Source: Aliiroseovarius crassostreae (GTDB lineage: Bacteria > Pseudomonadota > Alphaproteobacteria > Rhodobacterales > Rhodobacteraceae). Taken from it: a DNA stretch of 64,000 bases. The stretch lies in contig NZ_LKBA01000006.1 in assembly GCF_001307765.1 (NCBI RefSeq), positions 186,001-250,000 of the forward strand, in the 5' to 3' direction. The notes under the pieces are model-generated. The model made no database searches. It saw only the letters and a program-made list of their open reading frames with translations, and was not told the DNA's origin. The translations under genes and the position numbers were made by a program. Shown piece after piece: positions 2,887 through 42,076 of the stretch (position 1 is its first letter; the number at the start of each line of letters is the position of its first letter).

Positions 2887-3945
2887 TTGAGGGTAGAGAA
2901 CACAGCTTATCTTTCCTGCGACAGCACCTGCATACACCTGTGCCGCCAGCTTCTGTTTGCCTTGATACTCAGCATTTTCCCACCGGCGGCATTGCTGGCT
3001 GCCGACGACCGGTGCGGTGTCCCCGATGAAGTCAATGAACTGATCGACACGGTCAGCAGATATGCGGCAAAAGGTGCGGTGCTGTCGTCAGTGGAACAGC
3101 GCCAGCTTCGCCGCCAACTCATCCGTGCGCAATCCGTCATCTCCACCCGAGAGGATGATCTGGGCCTAGGCAGTTGGAAACCCGCATTTGACTGGATGGT
3201 CATCGCCACACAGGAAGCGTCGACTACGGGCCGGTTTCCGGACCCGGCAACGCTGCGCAGCCGTGTGGGTGTCCTGATCGCGGGGATGCGATTTTCCTGC
3301 AATGCCGGCGTGAGCGGTGGCAAGGGGGCTGCATGGGCAGGACAGGCGGACGGCACGATGAAAAACCGCCTGAAACGCTTTATGGAACGGGGTGTCTCTG
3401 ACTTAACGGTTTTAGAACAATCGCTTGCGGGCCTTTTCCTTGTGACCTTCCTGGTGCCGATCATCATCGGGGCAATCTGGTTTTCCCATTGGATTATCCG
3501 CACCTATCACACGGAGGATAAGCCCCTGCACCCCGTATCAGAACCAATATCCACGCCGCCCCCTGCCCCCCCAACTGGCCTATTCAACCAGCATGAATGT
3601 CGCATTCACGCCGCTGTTGAATTCGATCTGGATGTTGTGGATGTCTCGATTGTCGCCCTGGATGAAATCGGTGCCCTGATTGCGCCTGTCAACTCCGGCG
3701 CATATGACCGGATCGTCACCTTGCTTGAGGAAAGGCGTGGCAATGGCCATTGTCAGATCATGGTCGGGCCACATCGTCTCGCCTTTCTGATACTGAACCA
3801 TCACCACGGGCTGGCCGCCGGTTTTTTCTCCGATCCGCTGTCGCCAGAGCTGCTCGAAACTCTGTTGAACGCCTCTGTCACGCCGCCGGTTTTCACACCA
3901 ATGCCGACGGCGTCATCCCCTGCGCCCGAATTGCCTGACGACTAG
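2887..3945 (+). CDS. Unrecognised membrane protein inserted next to hflKC
   Basis: Open frame of up to 352 codons; I recognise no family. It has a hydrophobic N-terminal segment ending in PPAALLAAD, like a cleavable signal. A roughly 150-residue polar domain with two cysteines follows, then a second hydrophobic span near residues 180-200 (LAGLFLVTFLVPIIIGAIWF), a proline-rich linker (ISTPPPAPPTG) and a PilZ-like-sized C-terminal domain of about 100 residues beginning at HECRIHAAVEF. The frame begins at a TTG (2887) with poor ribosome-site support, so the true start may lie further in. Its strand is opposite to both neighbours, and it separates the protease gene from hflC-hflK. No PilZ consensus is visible, so that resemblance is only of size and place. 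Confidence 0.6.
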   Translation: MRVENTAYLSCDSTCIHLCRQLLFALILSIFPPAALLAADDRCGVPDEVNELIDTVSRYAAKGAVLSSVEQRQLRRQLIRAQSVISTREDDLGLGSWKPAFDWMVIATQEASTTGRFPDPATLRSRVGVLIAGMRFSCNAGVSGGKGAAWAGQADGTMKNRLKRFMERGVSDLTVLEQSLAGLFLVTFLVPIIIGAIWFSHWIIRTYHTEDKPLHPVSEPISTPPPAPPTGLFNQHECRIHAAVEFDLDVVDVSIVALDEIGALIAPVNSGAYDRIVTLLEERRGNGHCQIMVGPHRLAFLILNHHHGLAAGFFSDPLSPELLETLLNASVTPPVFTPMPTASSPAPELPDD

Positions 3946-4171
3946 AACATATTTTTTTGAAATGGCGCTGAAACAGGACATGCAACTGACCGCAGGCGGT
4001 GGCGACCTCTCTTGTTCCGATGGCGCAGGGCTTACCCGAAACTGTGGCGCTGTCCTGAGCTCATCGCGGCGTCAGAAACGCAGCTGCAGACACAGCGCCG
4101 CACAACCGGCGCACAGCCGGCGCACAGGGACGTAGCCCGATGGGGGTCCCGCCCAATCACCTGTTCAAAAC

Positions 4172-30042: not shown

Positions 30043-32112
30043 CTACCAGCGGGTCCACAACCGCTCCCCCTGCTGATCGCGCGCCGTAATCATGCGCCAG
30101 CCTGTCCCCTGAGGCCACAGCGCAAGGGAGCCGGTCTCGCGCAAATCGGTGGGGCTGATGATCCAGCAATCTGGCGACATCTTCGCCTCAGGGGGCTGGT
30201 TCATGACCACAATCCCCCCGGTGGCACAGGCCTCAACCAATCGTCCCGCCCCGCGTTTTCCACTGAGATGCACCATGGGCAGCCCGGCAAGAGCCAGTTC
30301 GGCATAGCCGTTGTCCCCCATAAAGGCCCCAAGCGCATAGGCCTCAACCTGCTCTGCGGGCGCACCATCGTTTTCCAGCCAGATCCGAGCCGCAAACCCC
30401 TCTCCCTTGGGTTTGGACAAAGCACGCCCCTGCTCGGTCATGACACCAACCAATCCACCTGTCTGGCTGATCAGGACCGGGGGTCTGTCGACACTGCTCC
30501 ATAAAAACAGCCCACCCCCAAACACCAGCGCCCCCAGCAGCTTTTCCCACCGGGTCAGCAAAACCAGCAAAAGCCCTCCGAACGCCACCAAGGGCAAGAC
30601 CGAAGACATCGGCTGCGGCACATAGCCAACCGCTCCATCCAGTGAGGAAACATAACCGGCAACGCCAATGATCCAGTTGATCGGTGGGCCCATCACCTTG
30701 ATCGCCACCCAGCCCAGCCCAAACGGGCTGAGCAATGCCGCAAGCACCGCCGCGGGCATGACAATACTGCCCATCAGCGGCACGGACAGAAGATTGGCCA
30801 ACAGGCCAAAATGGCTGACCTGATTGAAATGCGCCGCCGCAAACGGGGCTGTCGCGGCCGCTGCCACGGCAGAGGACAGCACCACCGCCACAACCGGCTG
30901 AAACCAGCGCGGCCCGAAAAACCGCCGATAAGGACCAAGCCAGCCGAACACCGCCACCAGTGCCGTGGTCGCGGCAAACGACATCTGGAAACCGGGTTCG
31001 GTCAGGGCTTCGGGATGCAGCAAAAGAACAATCACCGCCGCCATGGCCACGGCCCTCAGGCTCAGCGCGCGGCGGTCAAACAGGACGCCGACAAACATGG
31101 TGCTCACCATGATAAAGGCCCGTTCGGTCGACACGTTTCCCCCGGACAGAAGCAAATAGAATGCACCTGCCCCAATCGCCAGAACCGCCGCGATTTTCTT
31201 GGTCGGGCGTCGCAGGGCCAATCCGGGCAACAATGCCATCAGATAGCGCACAGCCTGATAGACAAACCCGGTGAGCAGCCCCATATGTAACCCGGAAATG
31301 GCCAGCAGATGCGCAAGGTTCGATCCACGCAACGCCTCCAATGTGGGACGGCTGATCGCAGAACGATCCCCCGTGATGATGGCGGCGGCAAATGCGCCCG
31401 CTTCGCCGGGCAGGATCCCCTGCACCCAGGCCGAAAGCGCCATGCGCAAGCGATTGATCTGCACCACACCCCAGCCGCCATCCGGCGGTTCAAGTTCCAG
31501 CACCGGGTTGCGGGTATAGCCAATTGCCCCGATCCCCCTGAACCACGCCATGCGCTGAAAATCGAACCCTCCGGGTTCAACCGGGCCGTTCGGGCCGGAC
31601 AGATGGGCGGTCGCGGCCACACGCATCCCGATCTGCGGCGTGGTGAAACTGTCATCCCCATAAAGGGATATCCGCGCCTTTCGTGGCACCCGATCCGGGG
31701 ACGTATCCGCCAGCCGGATCTGATCCAAGGTCAGCCGCACCGCTTCTTTTTGCGAGCGGTCCATGGCAATGATCCGCCCCTCAATCGGGCCGTAATAGCG
31801 AAAGTCGAGAACCGGCGCCGCCACGTAATGCGCCCTTGCCCCGGCCAGGAAAATCCCGGCGGCAATCAATGCCACGCCCCGAGACACAGGGCCAAGCCCC
31901 CAGGGCCAAAAACGGGTGATCAGGACAGAGAGGAGGAGGAGAACAACAAGTGCTCCGTAAACAAGAGGGCCCGGCTCTACCGGCAACAGGAAATAGATCC
32001 CGACCCCTGTTCCGAGGAAAATCGGCACCCAGTGCAGGAACCGTCCCCGTTCCCGTTCGACCCGGGTGAGGCCCGCCTGCATGACAGATAAGGGGCTGAT
32101 CCTGGCCAGCAC
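30043..32112 (-). CDS. comEC: ComEC/Rec2-family DNA uptake channel protein
   Basis: 689-aa polytopic membrane protein of the ComEC/Rec2 family, which carries single-stranded DNA across the inner membrane in natural transformation. It shows the N-terminal oligonucleotide-binding-like region (about residues 90-190), then the competence core with LLAISGLHMGLLTGFVYQ and NVSTERAFIMVSTMFVGVLFDRRA. The C-terminal part is shorter than the full metallo-beta-lactamase domain of B. subtilis ComEC and lacks its usual HxHxDH motif, as in many alphaproteobacteria. In Rhodobacter ComEC is also required for receiving gene transfer agent DNA, which is relevant to the lysis cassette at 39.6-41.6 kb. The start is a GTG with GGGAGG upstream. 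Confidence 0.9.
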   Translation of the reverse strand: MLARISPLSVMQAGLTRVERERGRFLHWVPIFLGTGVGIYFLLPVEPGPLVYGALVVLLLLSVLITRFWPWGLGPVSRGVALIAAGIFLAGARAHYVAAPVLDFRYYGPIEGRIIAMDRSQKEAVRLTLDQIRLADTSPDRVPRKARISLYGDDSFTTPQIGMRVAATAHLSGPNGPVEPGGFDFQRMAWFRGIGAIGYTRNPVLELEPPDGGWGVVQINRLRMALSAWVQGILPGEAGAFAAAIITGDRSAISRPTLEALRGSNLAHLLAISGLHMGLLTGFVYQAVRYLMALLPGLALRRPTKKIAAVLAIGAGAFYLLLSGGNVSTERAFIMVSTMFVGVLFDRRALSLRAVAMAAVIVLLLHPEALTEPGFQMSFAATTALVAVFGWLGPYRRFFGPRWFQPVVAVVLSSAVAAAATAPFAAAHFNQVSHFGLLANLLSVPLMGSIVMPAAVLAALLSPFGLGWVAIKVMGPPINWIIGVAGYVSSLDGAVGYVPQPMSSVLPLVAFGGLLLVLLTRWEKLLGALVFGGGLFLWSSVDRPPVLISQTGGLVGVMTEQGRALSKPKGEGFAARIWLENDGAPAEQVEAYALGAFMGDNGYAELALAGLPMVHLSGKRGAGRLVEACATGGIVVMNQPPEAKMSPDCWIISPTDLRETGSLALWPQGTGWRMITARDQQGERLWTRW

Positions 32113-37080: not shown

Positions 37081-37547
37081 CCCTCCATCAACTCTTCAAG
37101 GCGTCTGGCTTCATCCTTAGACAACCCGTCATCCTTTTCGCGTCCCTGTGCGCGGCGGCGCAGATAGATCACACCTGTGATCGCCGCGATCAGGAACAAC
37201 ACCGGCCCAGCCAGCCACAGCACAATATTTGCCCCGGTGGCGGTGGGTTTCATCAGCACATACTCGCCGTAGCGTTCAACGATGAAGGCGACCACTTCGC
37301 TGTTGCTGTCCCCTTCCACCAGACGCTCGCGCACCAGCAGACGAAGGTCTTTAGCGATTGCGGCATTGCTTTCGTCGATGTTCTCCCCCCGGCAGACCAC
37401 GCAGCGCAGACCCGCCGAGATATCACGGGCCCGTTGTTCCAGCACCGGATCATCCAGCACTTCATCCGGGTTCACCGCCAGTGTTGGGGTCGCCAGACTG
37501 GCAAGAACCACGGCCGCGACAATCAGACGTTTGATACGGGTCATCAT
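37077..37547 (-). CDS. ccmH: Cytochrome c maturation thiol-disulfide protein CcmH
   Basis: 156-aa membrane-anchored periplasmic protein that handles the apocytochrome c haem-binding thiols. It has a signal or anchor at the N-terminus, the redox pair Cys49/Cys52 in LRCVVCRGENI, the LRLLVRERLVEGDSNSEVVAFIVERYGEYVLMKP segment and a C-terminal membrane span (about residues 105-125). The start overlaps ccmF by four bases. The cytoplasmic tail is short, without the TPR domain of enterobacterial CcmH, which here would be the separate CcmI (not in this window). Confidence 0.93.
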   Translation of the reverse strand: MMTRIKRLIVAAVVLASLATPTLAVNPDEVLDDPVLEQRARDISAGLRCVVCRGENIDESNAAIAKDLRLLVRERLVEGDSNSEVVAFIVERYGEYVLMKPTATGANIVLWLAGPVLFLIAAITGVIYLRRRAQGREKDDGLSKDEARRLEELMEG

Positions 37548-39517
37548 TCTGCGGGCACTCCTTTCGGGGCACGGGTTCGGGCAGCACCTGCCGCGACACG
37601 GAAACGGCGGTCGGACAAGCTGATCAGCCCCCCCAGCGCCATCAGCGTACAGCCGAACCAGATCCAGTTCACAAAGGGTTTGATAAAGGTGCGCACCGCC
37701 CAGCCTCCATCATCTTGAGGATCACCGATCACCACATAGATATCCCTCCAGAACCCGTTGGAAATCGCCGCTTCGGTGGTTGGCATCCCCTGCACCGGAT
37801 AGACGCGTTTCTCAGGATTGAGCAACGCCACGGTCTCGCCTTCCTGCTCAATCCGAACGGTAGCCTTGGTGGAGATGTAGTTTGGTCCCGGCTCGCGGTT
37901 CACCTCTTCCAGCGTCACGGTATAGCCTGACACCTCAAACGGTTCCCCGACCATCGTGGTCCGGATATCTTCATATTGCCACGCTTCCAGCCCCGAGATC
38001 CCCATCATGGTCACCCCAAGCCCAACATGGGCGGCAAATTTGCCCCAATCTGCACGAGGCAGACGGGTGAGGCGTGACAAGCGCCCGGCAAGGGCCCCTC
38101 GTCCGGTGCGCCCCATGATATCGACAATAGAGCCCGCCACCAGCCAGGTTCCGAGGAACATGCCAATCGGCCCCAGCGCCGACTTTCCGGTCTGCATCGC
38201 CCAGATCAGGGTCAACACCGACAGCGCGGCAATCAACGCCGGGACAAGCTGCTTTACCACCCGACCCAGCTTTGCGCGTTTCCACGACAGCATGGCCCCT
38301 ATTGGCAAGATCAGCGCAAGCACAACCATGAAGGGGATAAAGGCGGCATTGAAAAACGGTGCGCCAACCGAAACCTTGCGATCAAATATTTCGCCAATCA
38401 GCGGCCAGATCGTGCCGATGAAAACCACGATTGAGCTCACCGCGAGAAGCACATTGTTGAACACAAGCGCGCTTTCCCGGCTTACGATTGAAAAGACACC
38501 TTTCGCTTCCATTGCATTGGCGCGGGCGGCAAAGAGCGTCAGCGCACCACCGGTAAAGACAGCGAGGATCATCAAGATGAACACGCCACGTTCCGGGTCC
38601 GATGCAAAGGCGTGGACCGAGGTGATCACCCCCGAACGCACAAGGAATGTGCCGATAATCGAGAAGCCGAAGGCGAGGATTGCCAGAAGGATCGTCCAGC
38701 TTTTCAGGCTTTCGCGCTTTTCAACCACGATGGCGGAATGAAACAGGGCTGCGGCAAAGAGCCATGGCATGAAGGATGCGTTTTCCACCGGATCCCAGAA
38801 CCAGAAACCGCCCCAGCCCAGCTCGTAATAGGCCCACCACGACCCCAGCGCGATGCCGATGGTCAGGAAAACCCAGGCCGCCAGCGTCCAGGGGCGCACC
38901 CAGCGGCCCCAAGAGGCGTCAATCCGGCCCTCGATCAGGGCAGCCACGGCAAAAGAGAACGCCATCGACAGACCCACATAGCCCAGATAGAGGAAGGGCG
39001 GGTGCATGGCGAGGCCGATATCCTGCAACAGCGGGTTCAGGTCCCGCCCATCAAAAGGCGGGCTTTCAAACCGCAGGAACGGGTTTGAGGTAAAGAGGAT
39101 GAAGGCCAGAAACGCCACCGCAATTGCACTTTGCACCGACAGAACACGCGCCCGCAAGGTCAGCGGCAGGTTGCCCCCGAACCAGGCGGCCATCGCGCCG
39201 AAAAACGACACGCTCATCACCCACAGAAGCATCGAGCCTTCATGGTTGCCCCACACGCCCGAGATCTTGTAGATCATCGGTTTCGCGCTGTGCGAGTTGT
39301 AATAAACCAACTGCACCGAAAAATCTGAGGTCACAAACGCGTAGGTCAGCGCGCCGAACGCGACAACGAGAAACGCAAGCTGCAGCGTGGCTGCTGGCAC
39401 TGCCAGCTCCATCCAGCTGCGCCAGCCCTTATGTGCCCCAATCAGTGGCACCACCATCTGGATGGTTGCCACGCCCAGCGCCATGATCAGCGCAAAATGT
39501 CCAAGTTCAGTAATCAT
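37544..39517 (-). CDS. ccmF: Haem lyase subunit CcmF
   Basis: 657-aa polytopic protein that, with CcmH and CcmI, ligates haem to apocytochrome c. It carries the WWD-type domain GWGGFWFWDPVENASFMPWL in the periplasmic loop and conserved histidines (GHFALIMALGV, VWGNHEGSMLLWV, AMHPPFLYLGYVGL, FLVRSGVITSVHAFASDP). It is about the usual length of CcmF. It is followed directly by ccmH, but separated from ccmE by a lysis-type gene cluster, unlike the compact ccmE-ccmF order seen in many other bacteria. Confidence 0.96.
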   Translation of the reverse strand: MITELGHFALIMALGVATIQMVVPLIGAHKGWRSWMELAVPAATLQLAFLVVAFGALTYAFVTSDFSVQLVYYNSHSAKPMIYKISGVWGNHEGSMLLWVMSVSFFGAMAAWFGGNLPLTLRARVLSVQSAIAVAFLAFILFTSNPFLRFESPPFDGRDLNPLLQDIGLAMHPPFLYLGYVGLSMAFSFAVAALIEGRIDASWGRWVRPWTLAAWVFLTIGIALGSWWAYYELGWGGFWFWDPVENASFMPWLFAAALFHSAIVVEKRESLKSWTILLAILAFGFSIIGTFLVRSGVITSVHAFASDPERGVFILMILAVFTGGALTLFAARANAMEAKGVFSIVSRESALVFNNVLLAVSSIVVFIGTIWPLIGEIFDRKVSVGAPFFNAAFIPFMVVLALILPIGAMLSWKRAKLGRVVKQLVPALIAALSVLTLIWAMQTGKSALGPIGMFLGTWLVAGSIVDIMGRTGRGALAGRLSRLTRLPRADWGKFAAHVGLGVTMMGISGLEAWQYEDIRTTMVGEPFEVSGYTVTLEEVNREPGPNYISTKATVRIEQEGETVALLNPEKRVYPVQGMPTTEAAISNGFWRDIYVVIGDPQDDGGWAVRTFIKPFVNWIWFGCTLMALGGLISLSDRRFRVAAGAARTRAPKGVPAE

Positions 39518-39634: not shown

Positions 39635-40057
39635 TCAGTTTATGATGTAAATCAAGCCCGACAGACACACCGCCCCGAGCACGGGCCATAAAAACATGGC
39701 TCCATGCAGTCCAAAGGACCGATTAATCACGGAAAAGTGTAGAAGGGCACCCACAAGATACAGGGCCAGGAACACGAAATGCGCCGGGCTTTCCGCCGCC
39801 CATGCAGGTTCCCCCAACACCGAGAAGATCCACCACCAGCCCAGAACCAGGCTGGCCCCGGACCAGCTATAGGCCATTCCCAGGGCAAGCGGCGTGGCAC
39901 GCACCACGTAAAGCCACAGAAAGGTCAGCGAAATCATCAACCCCATCAGCGTGATCGCCCCATATCCGATCTGGTAAATCGCCTCGTATCCCGCCCAAAG
40001 ATACCCCAGTTGCAACACTGCGGCGATCACCATCATCAACGCAAAGGCCTGTTTCAT
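39635..40057 (-). CDS. Four-helix membrane protein ending the lysis-type cluster
   Basis: 140-aa protein with four hydrophobic helices and almost no loops, starting KQAFALMMVIAAVLQLGYLW and ending in GLIYIIN. I do not recognise the family. Its ATG overlaps the stop of the 41-aa gene (ATGA), so it belongs to the coupled chain behind the GH108 and holin genes. It could be an accessory membrane protein of lysis or an unrelated passenger. A 117-base gap separates it from ccmF. Confidence 0.75.
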   Translation of the reverse strand: MKQAFALMMVIAAVLQLGYLWAGYEAIYQIGYGAITLMGLMISLTFLWLYVVRATPLALGMAYSWSGASLVLGWWWIFSVLGEPAWAAESPAHFVFLALYLVGALLHFSVINRSFGLHGAMFLWPVLGAVCLSGLIYIIN

Positions 40058-40179
40058 TTCTGCAAAACCTCTCGCACCACCACATCCAATTCGGCGGCGG
40101 CATGTTTGTTTCTTTCGATCGACTGGCGCAGCTTGGCGCCAAAAATCAGCTCTTTGAGAAGGGAAATCAGCCGGGTCAT
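40054..40179 (-). CDS. 41-aa micro-protein in the lysis-type cluster
   Basis: Short gene, 41 codons: it begins MTRLISLLKELIFGAKLRQ and ends VVVREVLQK. The first part is an amphipathic basic helix with an LISLLKELIFG hydrophobic face, then a charged helix (SIERNKHAAAELDVVV). The start overlaps the stop of the 63-aa gene (ATGA) and its own stop overlaps the next start (ATGA), strong evidence that it is translated. GGAGGGCGCGAGCG precedes the ATG. Function unknown; membrane-associated by its look. Confidence 0.7.
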   Translation of the reverse strand: MTRLISLLKELIFGAKLRQSIERNKHAAAELDVVVREVLQK

Positions 40180-40367
40180 CGCTCGCGCCCTCCTGCCGGA
40201 AGGCGTTCGCGAATAATTGTGGTGATCTCGATCAGGATGGATGAGTTCTTGTCCAGCACAGCCCGCGTGGCCTGATCTTTCTGAAGATCCCGGTAAAGAA
40301 GGTAAAAAACCAAGAGCACCCAGGGGCCATGCTCTGACACAAGTTTCAGGATCAGGTCACTGCCCAT
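40176..40367 (-). CDS. BhlA/UviB-like small holin-type membrane protein
   Basis: 63-aa protein with a single N-terminal membrane helix (SEHGPWVLLVFYLLYRDLQK) followed by a charged helix (IIRERLPAGGRER at the end). The arrangement, with a short N-terminus, one span ending in a basic patch and then a polar coiled helix, matches phage BhlA/UviB-type holin-like proteins. The start overlaps the holin gene end by 11 bases and the stop overlaps the 41-aa gene start. It may serve as an antiholin or second holin. The family assignment is by pattern only. Confidence 0.65.
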   Translation of the reverse strand: MGSDLILKLVSEHGPWVLLVFYLLYRDLQKDQATRAVLDKNSSILIEITTIIRERLPAGGRER

Positions 40368-40956
40368 CGCGCCCTCCCCCAGCTTTCACCCAATCCTGCA
40401 AAGCCGCATTGCCGGATACATCCACTGACCCGGATGGCACAGGGGGCAAAAGCGGGGCTGGTGGGGCATCCGCTTGCGTAGCATTTTGGCGCTGCAACCC
40501 CTCAAGAGCCCTCAAATTGGCCACAACCTGAGGCGTGCGCGCAAGCGACATGGCGATTTCCTGCTGGAACGCCTGCCCCTTCGCCTGGTGGCGCGCCCCG
40601 AAATAGAAACTCACAATTGCGCCCAGCAGCCACCAGAGCGGTTCCGGCACCAAAGCCACCCCCTGCATTCGGGAGGAAAACCAGACCGGATCCACCATTG
40701 CCGCCAGAAAAAGAGCCAGAGTCCCCAATGCAAGGGCCGGGCGCGGAAGCCGGTTCAGCCCATCCATAAACCGATCAAACCCGCCTTTGCGGGCCACCAT
40801 GAACTCCGCCGCATAAGCCTCTAACGTGGCCTGATGCAAATCTGCATCGCGCGCGGCCCCGGCTTCGCGGTTTTCAACAAATACCTCTGCGGTATCCCGG
40901 ATCACATTCCGATTGGCACCAAACAGAATGTTCAAAATGCCACCAATCAGCCCCAT
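40357..40956 (-). CDS. Holin of the gene-transfer-agent release type
   Basis: 199-aa membrane protein. A polar N-terminal third has GLIGGILNILFGANRNVIRD and an amphipathic AEFMVARKGGFDRFMDGLNRL. The hydrophobic helices lie at about residues 74-92 (LALGTLALFLAAMVDPVWF) and 105-121 (EPLWWLLGAIVSFYFGARH), and the tail is proline/alanine-rich. This is the pattern of the Pfam family named holin of 3TMs for gene-transfer release (GTA_holin_3TM). It makes inner-membrane holes that let endolysin reach the wall. The start lies 10 bases inside the endolysin gene end, so the two are coupled. The longer reading frame to 41034 is just overlap with the endolysin. Confidence 0.8.
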   Translation of the reverse strand: MGLIGGILNILFGANRNVIRDTAEVFVENREAGAARDADLHQATLEAYAAEFMVARKGGFDRFMDGLNRLPRPALALGTLALFLAAMVDPVWFSSRMQGVALVPEPLWWLLGAIVSFYFGARHQAKGQAFQQEIAMSLARTPQVVANLRALEGLQRQNATQADAPPAPLLPPVPSGSVDVSGNAALQDWVKAGGGRDGQ

Positions 40957-41558
40957 TTTTCGACCCTTTCCCGATGTTCCAGATTCGAAAGATGATATTT
41001 TTCCGAGATGAATTCCTCGGCCCGCGTGATCCATCCGCCTTTGCCCCCATCGCGGCGGCGCGCGTATTTGCGCGATTTCGGTCGCTGATCCGCAAGACGG
41101 TAATAATAGTTGCGCCGTTCGATCCCATACGCGTCTGCCAGATGGTCCGGGGCTGCGGCCATGGCCAGACGCACCGCGCGCAGGGAGCGCGGGCCAAGCA
41201 CGCCGTCCACGGCAACGGCATAGCCCATCTTGCCCACCAACCGTTGCAGGATACGCACCGCGCTCCCGCCTGCATTCACATACATGTCAAACACGCTGGG
41301 CTGCAGCGGGGCCGGCAAATCTGCAATTCTGGGTCGGTGAAAATAATGGCGCACAAAGATCTCGCGCGCCTGATCGCGGGTCAGAGCCTTGACGTCCTGA
41401 GAGGTGATCTTTCCATCCCCGGTCAGATCAATCCCCAGCCCACGCATGGTGTTGAGGGTGACCCCGTATTTCGTCGCCCCGCCCGGATCATCGGGGTCAT
41501 TCACATACCCGCCTTCGCGGGCAATGATTTCATCTGCAATCTCTTCAACGCTTTTCAT
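40947..41558 (-). CDS. GH108 N-acetylmuramidase (endolysin) of GTA release type
   Basis: 203-aa muramidase of glycoside hydrolase family 108. The catalytic Glu15 is in AREGGYVNDPDDPGGATKYGVT, the conserved substrate-site stretch. An EF-hand-like DLTGDGKITSQDV insertion follows. The C-terminal half has the peptidoglycan-binding-type PSVFDMYVNAGGSAV and DGVLGPRSLRAV. It has no signal peptide, so it needs the holin for export. GH108 with a 3TM holin is the release pair known from Rhodobacter capsulatus gene transfer agent (loci rcc00555/rcc00556). It is the first gene of a five-gene overlapping chain placed between ccmE and ccmF. GAGG precedes the ATG. Confidence 0.88.
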   Translation of the reverse strand: MKSVEEIADEIIAREGGYVNDPDDPGGATKYGVTLNTMRGLGIDLTGDGKITSQDVKALTRDQAREIFVRHYFHRPRIADLPAPLQPSVFDMYVNAGGSAVRILQRLVGKMGYAVAVDGVLGPRSLRAVRLAMAAAPDHLADAYGIERRNYYYRLADQRPKSRKYARRRDGGKGGWITRAEEFISEKYHLSNLEHRERVEKWG

Positions 41559-41623
41559 CGGGCCTCGCCCCCGTTACCTGAAACGGGGACAAGGATCGTT
41601 AAATTACGTTAAGATTGTTGAAA

Positions 41624-42076
41624 TCAGGAGTTCGGATCCACGTAGACCCCGGTTTCCTTGAGGCTGTCGACCACCTCTTTGGGCATGTAATCCTCGTCAT
41701 GTTTGGCGAGGATCTCCGACGCTTCGAACACGCCGTCCACATAGGTTCCGGTGCCGATCATGCCCTGGTTCTCAGCAAAAAGATCCGGCAGCACCCCGGT
41801 GAAACGCACCGGCACAATCTCCCCCCCATCGGTGACCGAGAAGCTGACCGTCTCGCCCTGACCGCGCACAATCGAGCCTTCGGTGACGAGACCACCCATG
41901 CGGAAAACCTCGTTAGAAGCGGGCGGTTCGGCAATCACTTCGCTGGGGGACCGGTAATAGTTGATCCCGTCTTGCAGCGCGTAGCCGATCAGACCCGTTG
42001 CAATAGCAAGTGCCACAAAAGCCAGAACGATGATCTGGATCCGGCGGGTTTTCTTTAGGTTCTTCATCCCAGCCAT
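41624..42076 (-). CDS. ccmE: Periplasmic haem chaperone CcmE
   Basis: 150-aa membrane-anchored chaperone that carries haem covalently to CcmF. It has one N-terminal anchor (IQIIVLAFVALAIATGLIGYAL), then an OB-fold beta barrel (FRMGGLVTEGSIV, VRFTGVLPDLF) and the haem-binding His126 in LAKHDEDYMP. AAGGAG precedes the ATG. It lies 47 bases downstream of argC and 65 bases upstream of the GH108 gene. Confidence 0.95.
   Translation of the reverse strand: MAGMKNLKKTRRIQIIVLAFVALAIATGLIGYALQDGINYYRSPSEVIAEPPASNEVFRMGGLVTEGSIVRGQGETVSFSVTDGGEIVPVRFTGVLPDLFAENQGMIGTGTYVDGVFEASEILAKHDEDYMPKEVVDSLKETGVYVDPNS

Follow-up and report, generated by a model that had tools for sequence, protein, structure and literature searches.

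Five overlapping minus-strand open reading frames (ORFs) lie between the genes ccmE and ccmF, in the same orientation as both, in a 64,000-nucleotide stretch of the Aliiroseovarius crassostreae genome (contig NZ_LKBA01000006.1, positions 186,001–250,000 of the forward strand), hereafter the window. We propose, with a probability of about 60%, that this cassette (39635–41558) serves an RcGTA-type gene transfer agent (GTA) as its domesticated lysis operon, embedded in the cytochrome c maturation (ccm) operon and equipped with a putative lock on its ribosome-binding site (RBS) and with putative holin-tuning genes. The ORFs overlap successively, from gene 1 to gene 5, by 10, 11, 4, and 4 bp, as described in a previous interpretation made from the letters alone (the sequence-only reading).

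Genes 1 and 2 as Counterparts of the GTA Release Genes

Gene 1 matches PF05838 (94.7 bits) and PF09374 (86.1 bits), the GH108 and PG_binding_3 families, and passes the NCBIfam equivalog NF040573 for a holin-associated N-acetylmuramidase (352.4 bits; cutoff 240). Directly behind it, gene 2 passes PF11351, GTA_holin_3TM (97.7 bits; cutoff 24.8). The order murI-argC-ccmE-lysin-holin is common to the window and to R. capsulatus DSM 1710 (locus L165), which was located via an rcc00555 primer printed in PMC6854486: the forward primer is an exact match in DSM 1710 argC, and the reverse primer matches by eye at 19/20 positions at the TTAAC element of the same strain. On family membership, synteny with R. 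capsulatus, and co-occurrence with the GTA cluster, we identify genes 1 and 2 as positional orthologs of the GTA release genes rcc00555 and rcc00556, the assignment that the sequence-only reading had made. In R. capsulatus, disruption of rcc00555 is reported to lower gene transfer and to trap particles in the cells (PMC3423380, PMC6363796). GafA is described as binding the lysis promoter, and endolysin induction as diminished without ctrA (PMC6363796).

The genome holds an RcGTA cluster on another contig, in keeping with the earlier expectation that the pair would lie apart from the structural genes. This cluster comprises portal, protease, capsid, major tail protein, RcGTA_tape, hub, and megatron, with RcGTA_tape and megatron as equivalog matches and with a weak terminase match. 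A DUF6456 (GafA-type) protein is also present (143 bits); upstream of its gene is TTAAG-N6-GTAAC (L181, about 723–739), which resembles the CtrA site TTAAC-N6-GTAAC given for R. capsulatus gafA in PMC6363796. Among the same 199 genomes of the family, the lysin family occurs in 172 (165 over the cutoff) and GTA_TIM in 171. Both are found in 160 genomes, GTA_TIM alone in 11, and neither in 16, the remainder having the lysin alone (Fisher p 1.2e-9, uncorrected for kinship, with 7 + 8 genomes of the table assigned by elimination). The 11 genomes with GTA_TIM but without this lysin family may have another release route, have lost release, or reflect assembly gaps.

The position next to ccm genes recurs across the family. 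We surveyed 90 lysin loci, made up of the 30 best and 60 drawn from the 66 listed after them; the six omitted are the window's own locus and five others, mostly near contig ends. ccmE lies upstream and ccmF downstream in 53 of the 90, with ccmE alone in 17 and ccmF alone in 13; thus 83/90 have one or both, and 7/90 have neither in the stretch examined. The gap from the ccmE stop to the lysin start has a median of 66 bp (n = 92), and no phage genes adjoin the window cassette. Across the family, the position of the lysis pair between ccmE and ccmF is shared and of long standing.

Of 92 ccmE-linked loci, 78 have a TTAAC element at −75 to −25 of the lysin (shuffles: mean 3.4, maximum 9), as do 14 of 26 other lysin loci at the same position. 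It is present in 1 of 30 viral lysin leaders and, at matching windows upstream of ccmE, in 0 of 74. CtrA- and GafA-dependent expression with lytic release would be expected here; of this, the conserved TTAAC element is the sign that was found.

A Predicted RNA Hairpin over the Lysin Ribosome-Binding Site

Between TTAAC and the lysin start codon is a predicted stem that includes the RBS; the results on this hairpin come from computed RNA folding. The window leader folds at −25.5 kcal/mol, and 0/200 shuffles are as stable. Folding z scores below −2 are reached by 55/118 lysin leaders, compared with 5/123 for the holin, 8/74 for ccmE, 11/95 for ccmF, and 1/31 for gene 5. A MAFFT alignment of the leaders was too gappy for column-wise pair counts, and covariation was assessed by comparing the pairing of each leader's own arms with that of arms swapped between species. 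Own halves pair better than swapped halves (z −12.3, n = 92), with controls at +0.4 (ccmE), −1.8 (ccmF), +0.3 (gene 5), and +1.6 (holin). When ten windows from −120 to +59 are scanned, the pairing signal appears at −45 to −1 only (z −9.2). The signal is kept after redundancy reduction (90/92 leaders, z −11.8) and with GC-matched swaps (own pairing superior in 66/90, p 3.5e-7), and it is also present at 34 lysin loci without ccmE in the stretch examined (z −8.1). Viral lysin leaders (n = 30) have a weak own-pairing signal (z −1.8), although 11/30 still fold at z < −2. The leader halves are themselves poorly conserved in sequence, with mean pairwise identities of 0.32 and 0.27. By this folding model, a stem hiding the lysin RBS is kept by covariation, as expected for a T4 gene e-type structure. 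Around the lysin start itself, from −15 to +29, own pairing falls below swapped pairing (z +3.6), as if structure past the start codon were avoided.

The 5′ arm occupies TTAAC+17 to +27 (medians), roughly the place expected for a −10 region. A start some 33 nt past TTAAC would omit this arm, and the RBS is then computed to open: with the start assumed at TTAAC+33, it does so in 71/78 leaders, and its mean unpaired probability rises from 0.22 to 0.50. A like cut in ccmE leaders changes this value from 0.47 to 0.54, with a gain above 0.3 in 4/75.

Three Small Genes behind the Holin

Gene 3 encodes an N-terminal membrane helix followed by a charged helix, and gene 4 lacks a membrane span. For gene 5, the AlphaFold2 model is a five-helix membrane bundle (mean predicted local distance difference test score, pLDDT, 96.9), which replaces the four-helix protein of the sequence-only reading. 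Against PF10960 (BhlA), gene 3 stays below the curated cutoff (15.2 bits; cutoff 22.6), and among 30 of its relatives, 20 have matches with E values no higher than 1 (best 9.2e-4). Though under this cutoff, gene 3 may act like a BhlA holin. Genes 4 and 5 have no match in Pfam, PHROGs, or NCBIfam, and gene 5 has no known fold match.

Ratios of nonsynonymous to synonymous differences (pN/pS) are 0.14–0.22 for gene 3 (5 pairs), 0.36–0.60 for gene 4 (4 pairs), and 0.28–0.35 for gene 5 (4 pairs), in pairs whose synonymous sites are near saturation. By this measure, genes 3–5 are under purifying selection, strongest on gene 3. The low ratios, together with the 4-bp overlap of the gene 4 stop with the gene 5 start that is kept in 26/27 cases, argue that these small ORFs do not occur by chance.

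Gene 3 is present in 42 of 394 genomes of the family and gene 5 in 31/394, all within the 42. Of 30 gene 3 loci examined, 29 are behind the lysin-holin pair and 1 is cut by a contig end. Likewise, 28 of 30 gene 5 loci are behind lysin and holin, the exceptions being L118, cut by a contig end, and L128 (genome G043), without lysin and holin at the locus; ccmF follows downstream in 25/30. The small genes mostly overlap the holin (34/35). The gene 4 motif is recovered in 54/67 gene 3 loci (27 distinct sequences), and six gene 3 loci without gene 5 that the motif missed have, by eye, a gene 4-like ORF within ∼80 bp of gene 3, weak in L175. At one locus (L074, 3800–3985), the gene 4 relative sits behind gene 5 rather than ahead of it. 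At another (G133:C1; L089/L108), all five genes stand together without ccm neighbors; a photolyase-like gene lies downstream of the cassette, and nothing phage-like was seen upstream (L184).

In a lysin-holin tree with 124 rows, 9–10 changes are needed to account for where the trio is present, versus 32–34 in shuffles, and the trio is limited to a single 65-row fork (support 83; drawn open, with a few genomes appearing twice). Only the window's own copy of gene 3 was found among 385 genomes of the class, nearly all from other families, and searches of 50,697 phage records and of IMG/VR turned up no relative of gene 3 or gene 5. The sequence-only reading had held that the absence of the small genes from relatives that keep the pair would count against a lysis role. 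Such absence is found in most relatives, as the frequency of gene 3 indicates, but the lysis role is not thereby refuted, because the genes follow the pair in all loci examined but one, contig-end cuts aside.

That reading had also offered spanin or antiholin equivalents as roles for the three genes. We reject the former because no lipobox cysteine is conserved, a cysteine being present in 0/37 gene 3, 6/27 gene 4, and 12/31 gene 5 sequences; an antiholin role is possible, and unproved. Its description of the genes as undescribed lysis accessories agrees with the open-licence PubMed Central literature that we searched, where no report of the small accessories, of the ccm neighborhood of the GTA lysin, or of the hairpin was found. 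It overlooked the TTAAC promoter element and the hairpin, as well as the XhlA-like protein that can fill the position of gene 3.

An XhlA-like Protein in the Same Slot

At loci without gene 3, the slot behind the holin can hold a protein of 62–81 aa that has a hydrophobic stretch toward its C terminus (12 distinct sequences). All 12 match XhlA, PF10779 (best E 6.7e-10; the one score given is 30.9 bits, against a cutoff of 34.7). This XhlA-like slot protein is present in 37/394 genomes of the family; among the best 30 of these 37 loci, it lies behind the GTA holin in 30/30, with ccmE in 29 and ccmF in 27. The window genome has no XhlA-like match, and gene 3 and an XhlA match occur together in one genome only (G037), on different contigs. 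Relative to gene 3, the XhlA-like protein has its membrane and charged parts in reverse order. A third type of slot content, seen at L021, L029, and L049, consists of small membrane-type ORFs of 48–64 aa that overlap the holin stop.

Among 35 IMG/VR viral relatives of the lysin, a holin is present at 32, and gene 3, gene 5, the XhlA-like protein, ccmE, and ccmF are all absent within up to 4 kb on each side. Elsewhere on viral contigs there are XhlA-like relatives, at 20 loci; at one of these, another GH108 gene is nearby. In the family, two unlike kinds of protein share one slot behind one holin, which argues for a shared job on that holin, in timing or threshold. The slot proteins probably tune the holin, either by restraining or by helping it.

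Proposed Mechanism and Observations against It

Producers of GTAs must avoid accidental bursting, yet the lysis genes of this family commonly sit in a respiration operon. In the mechanism that we propose, read-through RNA from ccmE would carry both hairpin arms, the lysin would be poorly translated, and growing cells would be safe. Transcription driven by CtrA/GafA would begin past the 5′ arm and free the RBS, in the manner of T4 gene e. Gene 2 would open the inner membrane for the lysin. When, or at what threshold, the holin acts would be set by genes 3 and 4, alone or together with gene 5; gene 3 would act as the partner in the membrane, with gene 4 as a cytosolic helix that may act on it. 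In sister lineages, the XhlA-like protein would take over the holin-tuning job. More tentatively, in a generalization that we consider possible rather than probable, the lock would be family-wide, with lysin made only from GTA-promoter transcripts that start within the hairpin, and would be joined to an exchangeable holin-timing slot built at the domesticated locus and not found at viral relatives. If true, the lock would explain how a lethal operon can be safe inside a respiration operon, and the timing slot would explain how lysis is tuned.

Several observations weigh against the domesticated GTA lysis operon. Twelve genomes have the lysin but not GTA_TIM. TTAAC is missing from the tested range in 14/92 ccmE-linked loci, and just 43 of 86 ccmE-linked leaders fold at z < −2. 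In DSM 1710, the hairpin is weaker, at −15.8 kcal/mol (z −1.93, with 7/200 shuffles as stable). With the assumed transcription start, 7/78 leaders close instead of opening, and only 35/78 gain more than 0.3. Finally, genome G043 has genes 3–5 intact and GTA_TIM but lacks a lysin of this family, and the interval from ccmE to gene 3 contains no holin; a holin elsewhere in this genome was not searched for. This genome speaks against a strict dependence of genes 3–5 on the lysin-holin pair. At its locus (L183; G043:C6:204001-211000, 3237–3983), the three genes are between ccmE and ccmF, with TTAACC still ahead.

Alternative Explanations

The G043 locus is also an argument for genes 3–5 being membrane proteins of some other function that share the operon without acting in lysis, as is the lack of a known fold match for gene 5. 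Elsewhere, however, these genes follow the holin at every examined locus uncut by contig ends and mostly overlap it, all five genes travel jointly away from ccm in G133, and gene 3 is replaced in its slot by XhlA-like proteins; we take a non-lysis function to be a minority possibility, though one to be reckoned with. Unlikely, in our judgment, is that the inverted repeat ahead of the lysin serves as a ccmE terminator or a DNA operator instead of an RBS lock. GC-rich stems can act as terminators, and a promoter-proximal repeat could be a binding site for a dimer, but here the start codon follows the stem without a T-run, and pairing is kept while the sequence is poorly conserved, which is unlike a fixed operator.

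The location in ccm could instead mean that holin and muramidase are non-lytic and serve envelope or cytochrome biogenesis. The family-wide linkage and the 12 genomes with lysin and without GTA_TIM fit this idea, and holin-based non-lytic export is known (PMC9527704). It is nonetheless highly improbable given the trapped particles and the GafA-bound lysis promoter described above for R. capsulatus, and given that the lysin has been lost along with GTA_TIM in 16/28 TIM-less genomes. We give least credence to a phage lysis module, whether a prophage remnant or a separate acquisition, with no GTA role. Lysin relatives do occur on 35 viral contigs, and the same genome carries another lysin-holin pair belonging to these two families (G000:C5:498800-499829; L002, L007, L008) in an apparent Mu-like prophage, so called by eye from transposase-like, terminase-like, and tail-like ORFs. 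Against such an origin stand the lack of phage genes adjoining the cassette, the same place in R. capsulatus and the ccm neighbors at most surveyed loci, the co-occurrence with the GTA cluster, and the near absence of TTAAC from viral leaders.

Layout of the Locus

The features of the locus are listed in Table 1, with the start of gene 2 set at 40956 as read from the DNA. The sequence-only reading had pointed to comEC nearby. This gene (30043–32112; PF03772, 210 bits) does lie close, about 7.5 kb from the cassette, but its nearness carries no weight as evidence. It adjoins gltX and a citrate synthase gene in the window.

Table 1. Features of the cassette and its flanks, in window coordinates
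Feature	Position	Strand
Gene 1, GH108 muramidase (lysin), positional ortholog of rcc00555	40947..41558	-
Gene 2, GTA_holin_3TM, positional ortholog of rcc00556	40357..40956	-
Gene 3, 63 aa, BhlA-like, single membrane helix and charged helix	40176..40367	-
Gene 4, helical microprotein of 41 aa, not membrane-spanning	40054..40179	-
Gene 5, 140 aa, predicted to have five membrane helices	39635..40057	-
TTAAC element at the conserved promoter position (CtrA half-site type, as named in the literature)	41608..41612	-
Second TTAAC, 5 nt past the first	41598..41602	-
Predicted hairpin, 5′ arm, ahead of the lysin	41582..41594	-
Predicted hairpin, 3′ arm, covering the ribosome-binding site	41563..41575	-
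ccmE, upstream neighbor	41624..42076	-
ccmF, downstream neighbor	37544..39517	-

Comparison with Known Systems

In T4 gene e, a stem is described as hiding the lysozyme RBS in long transcripts, whereas late transcripts without the 5′ part are translated (PMC3014915). The window resembles this system in having a predicted stem over the RBS of a lysozyme-type gene; it differs in that the stem is in a bacterial operon, behind ccmE, where a transcription start inside the stem is putative. Gene 3 is like the BhlA/UviB small holins (PF10960) in size and in its N-terminal membrane helix followed by a charged helix, but it falls under the curated cutoff and lies behind another holin. XhlA acts with a holin in the PBSX cassette. 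Its likeness here is to the slot protein of relatives (PF10779), the window genome itself having no match.

A further comparison is with RcGTA. In line with the sequence-only reading, the lysin is 63% identical to rcc00555 and the holin 47% identical to rcc00556 over the alignment (57.6% over 125 aa by BLAST), and both loci have the upstream order murI-argC-ccmE and TTAAC ahead of the lysin. In contrast, DSM 1710 has metG, on the opposite strand, behind the holin, with neither ccmF nor accessory genes there, and its hairpin is the weaker of the two. Work on the R. capsulatus model could therefore not have revealed the accessories. The Mu-like prophage pair of the same genome (G000:C5; L002, L007) is likewise similar to genes 1 and 2, with the lysin 62% and the holin 47–49% identical and NF040573 and PF11351 both over cutoff. 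It differs in having no ccm neighbors, no accessories found there, and no TTAA within the last 75 nt ahead of the lysin. The locus as a whole suggests that phage lysis genes gained, on domestication, a regulation that is missing in their phage relatives.

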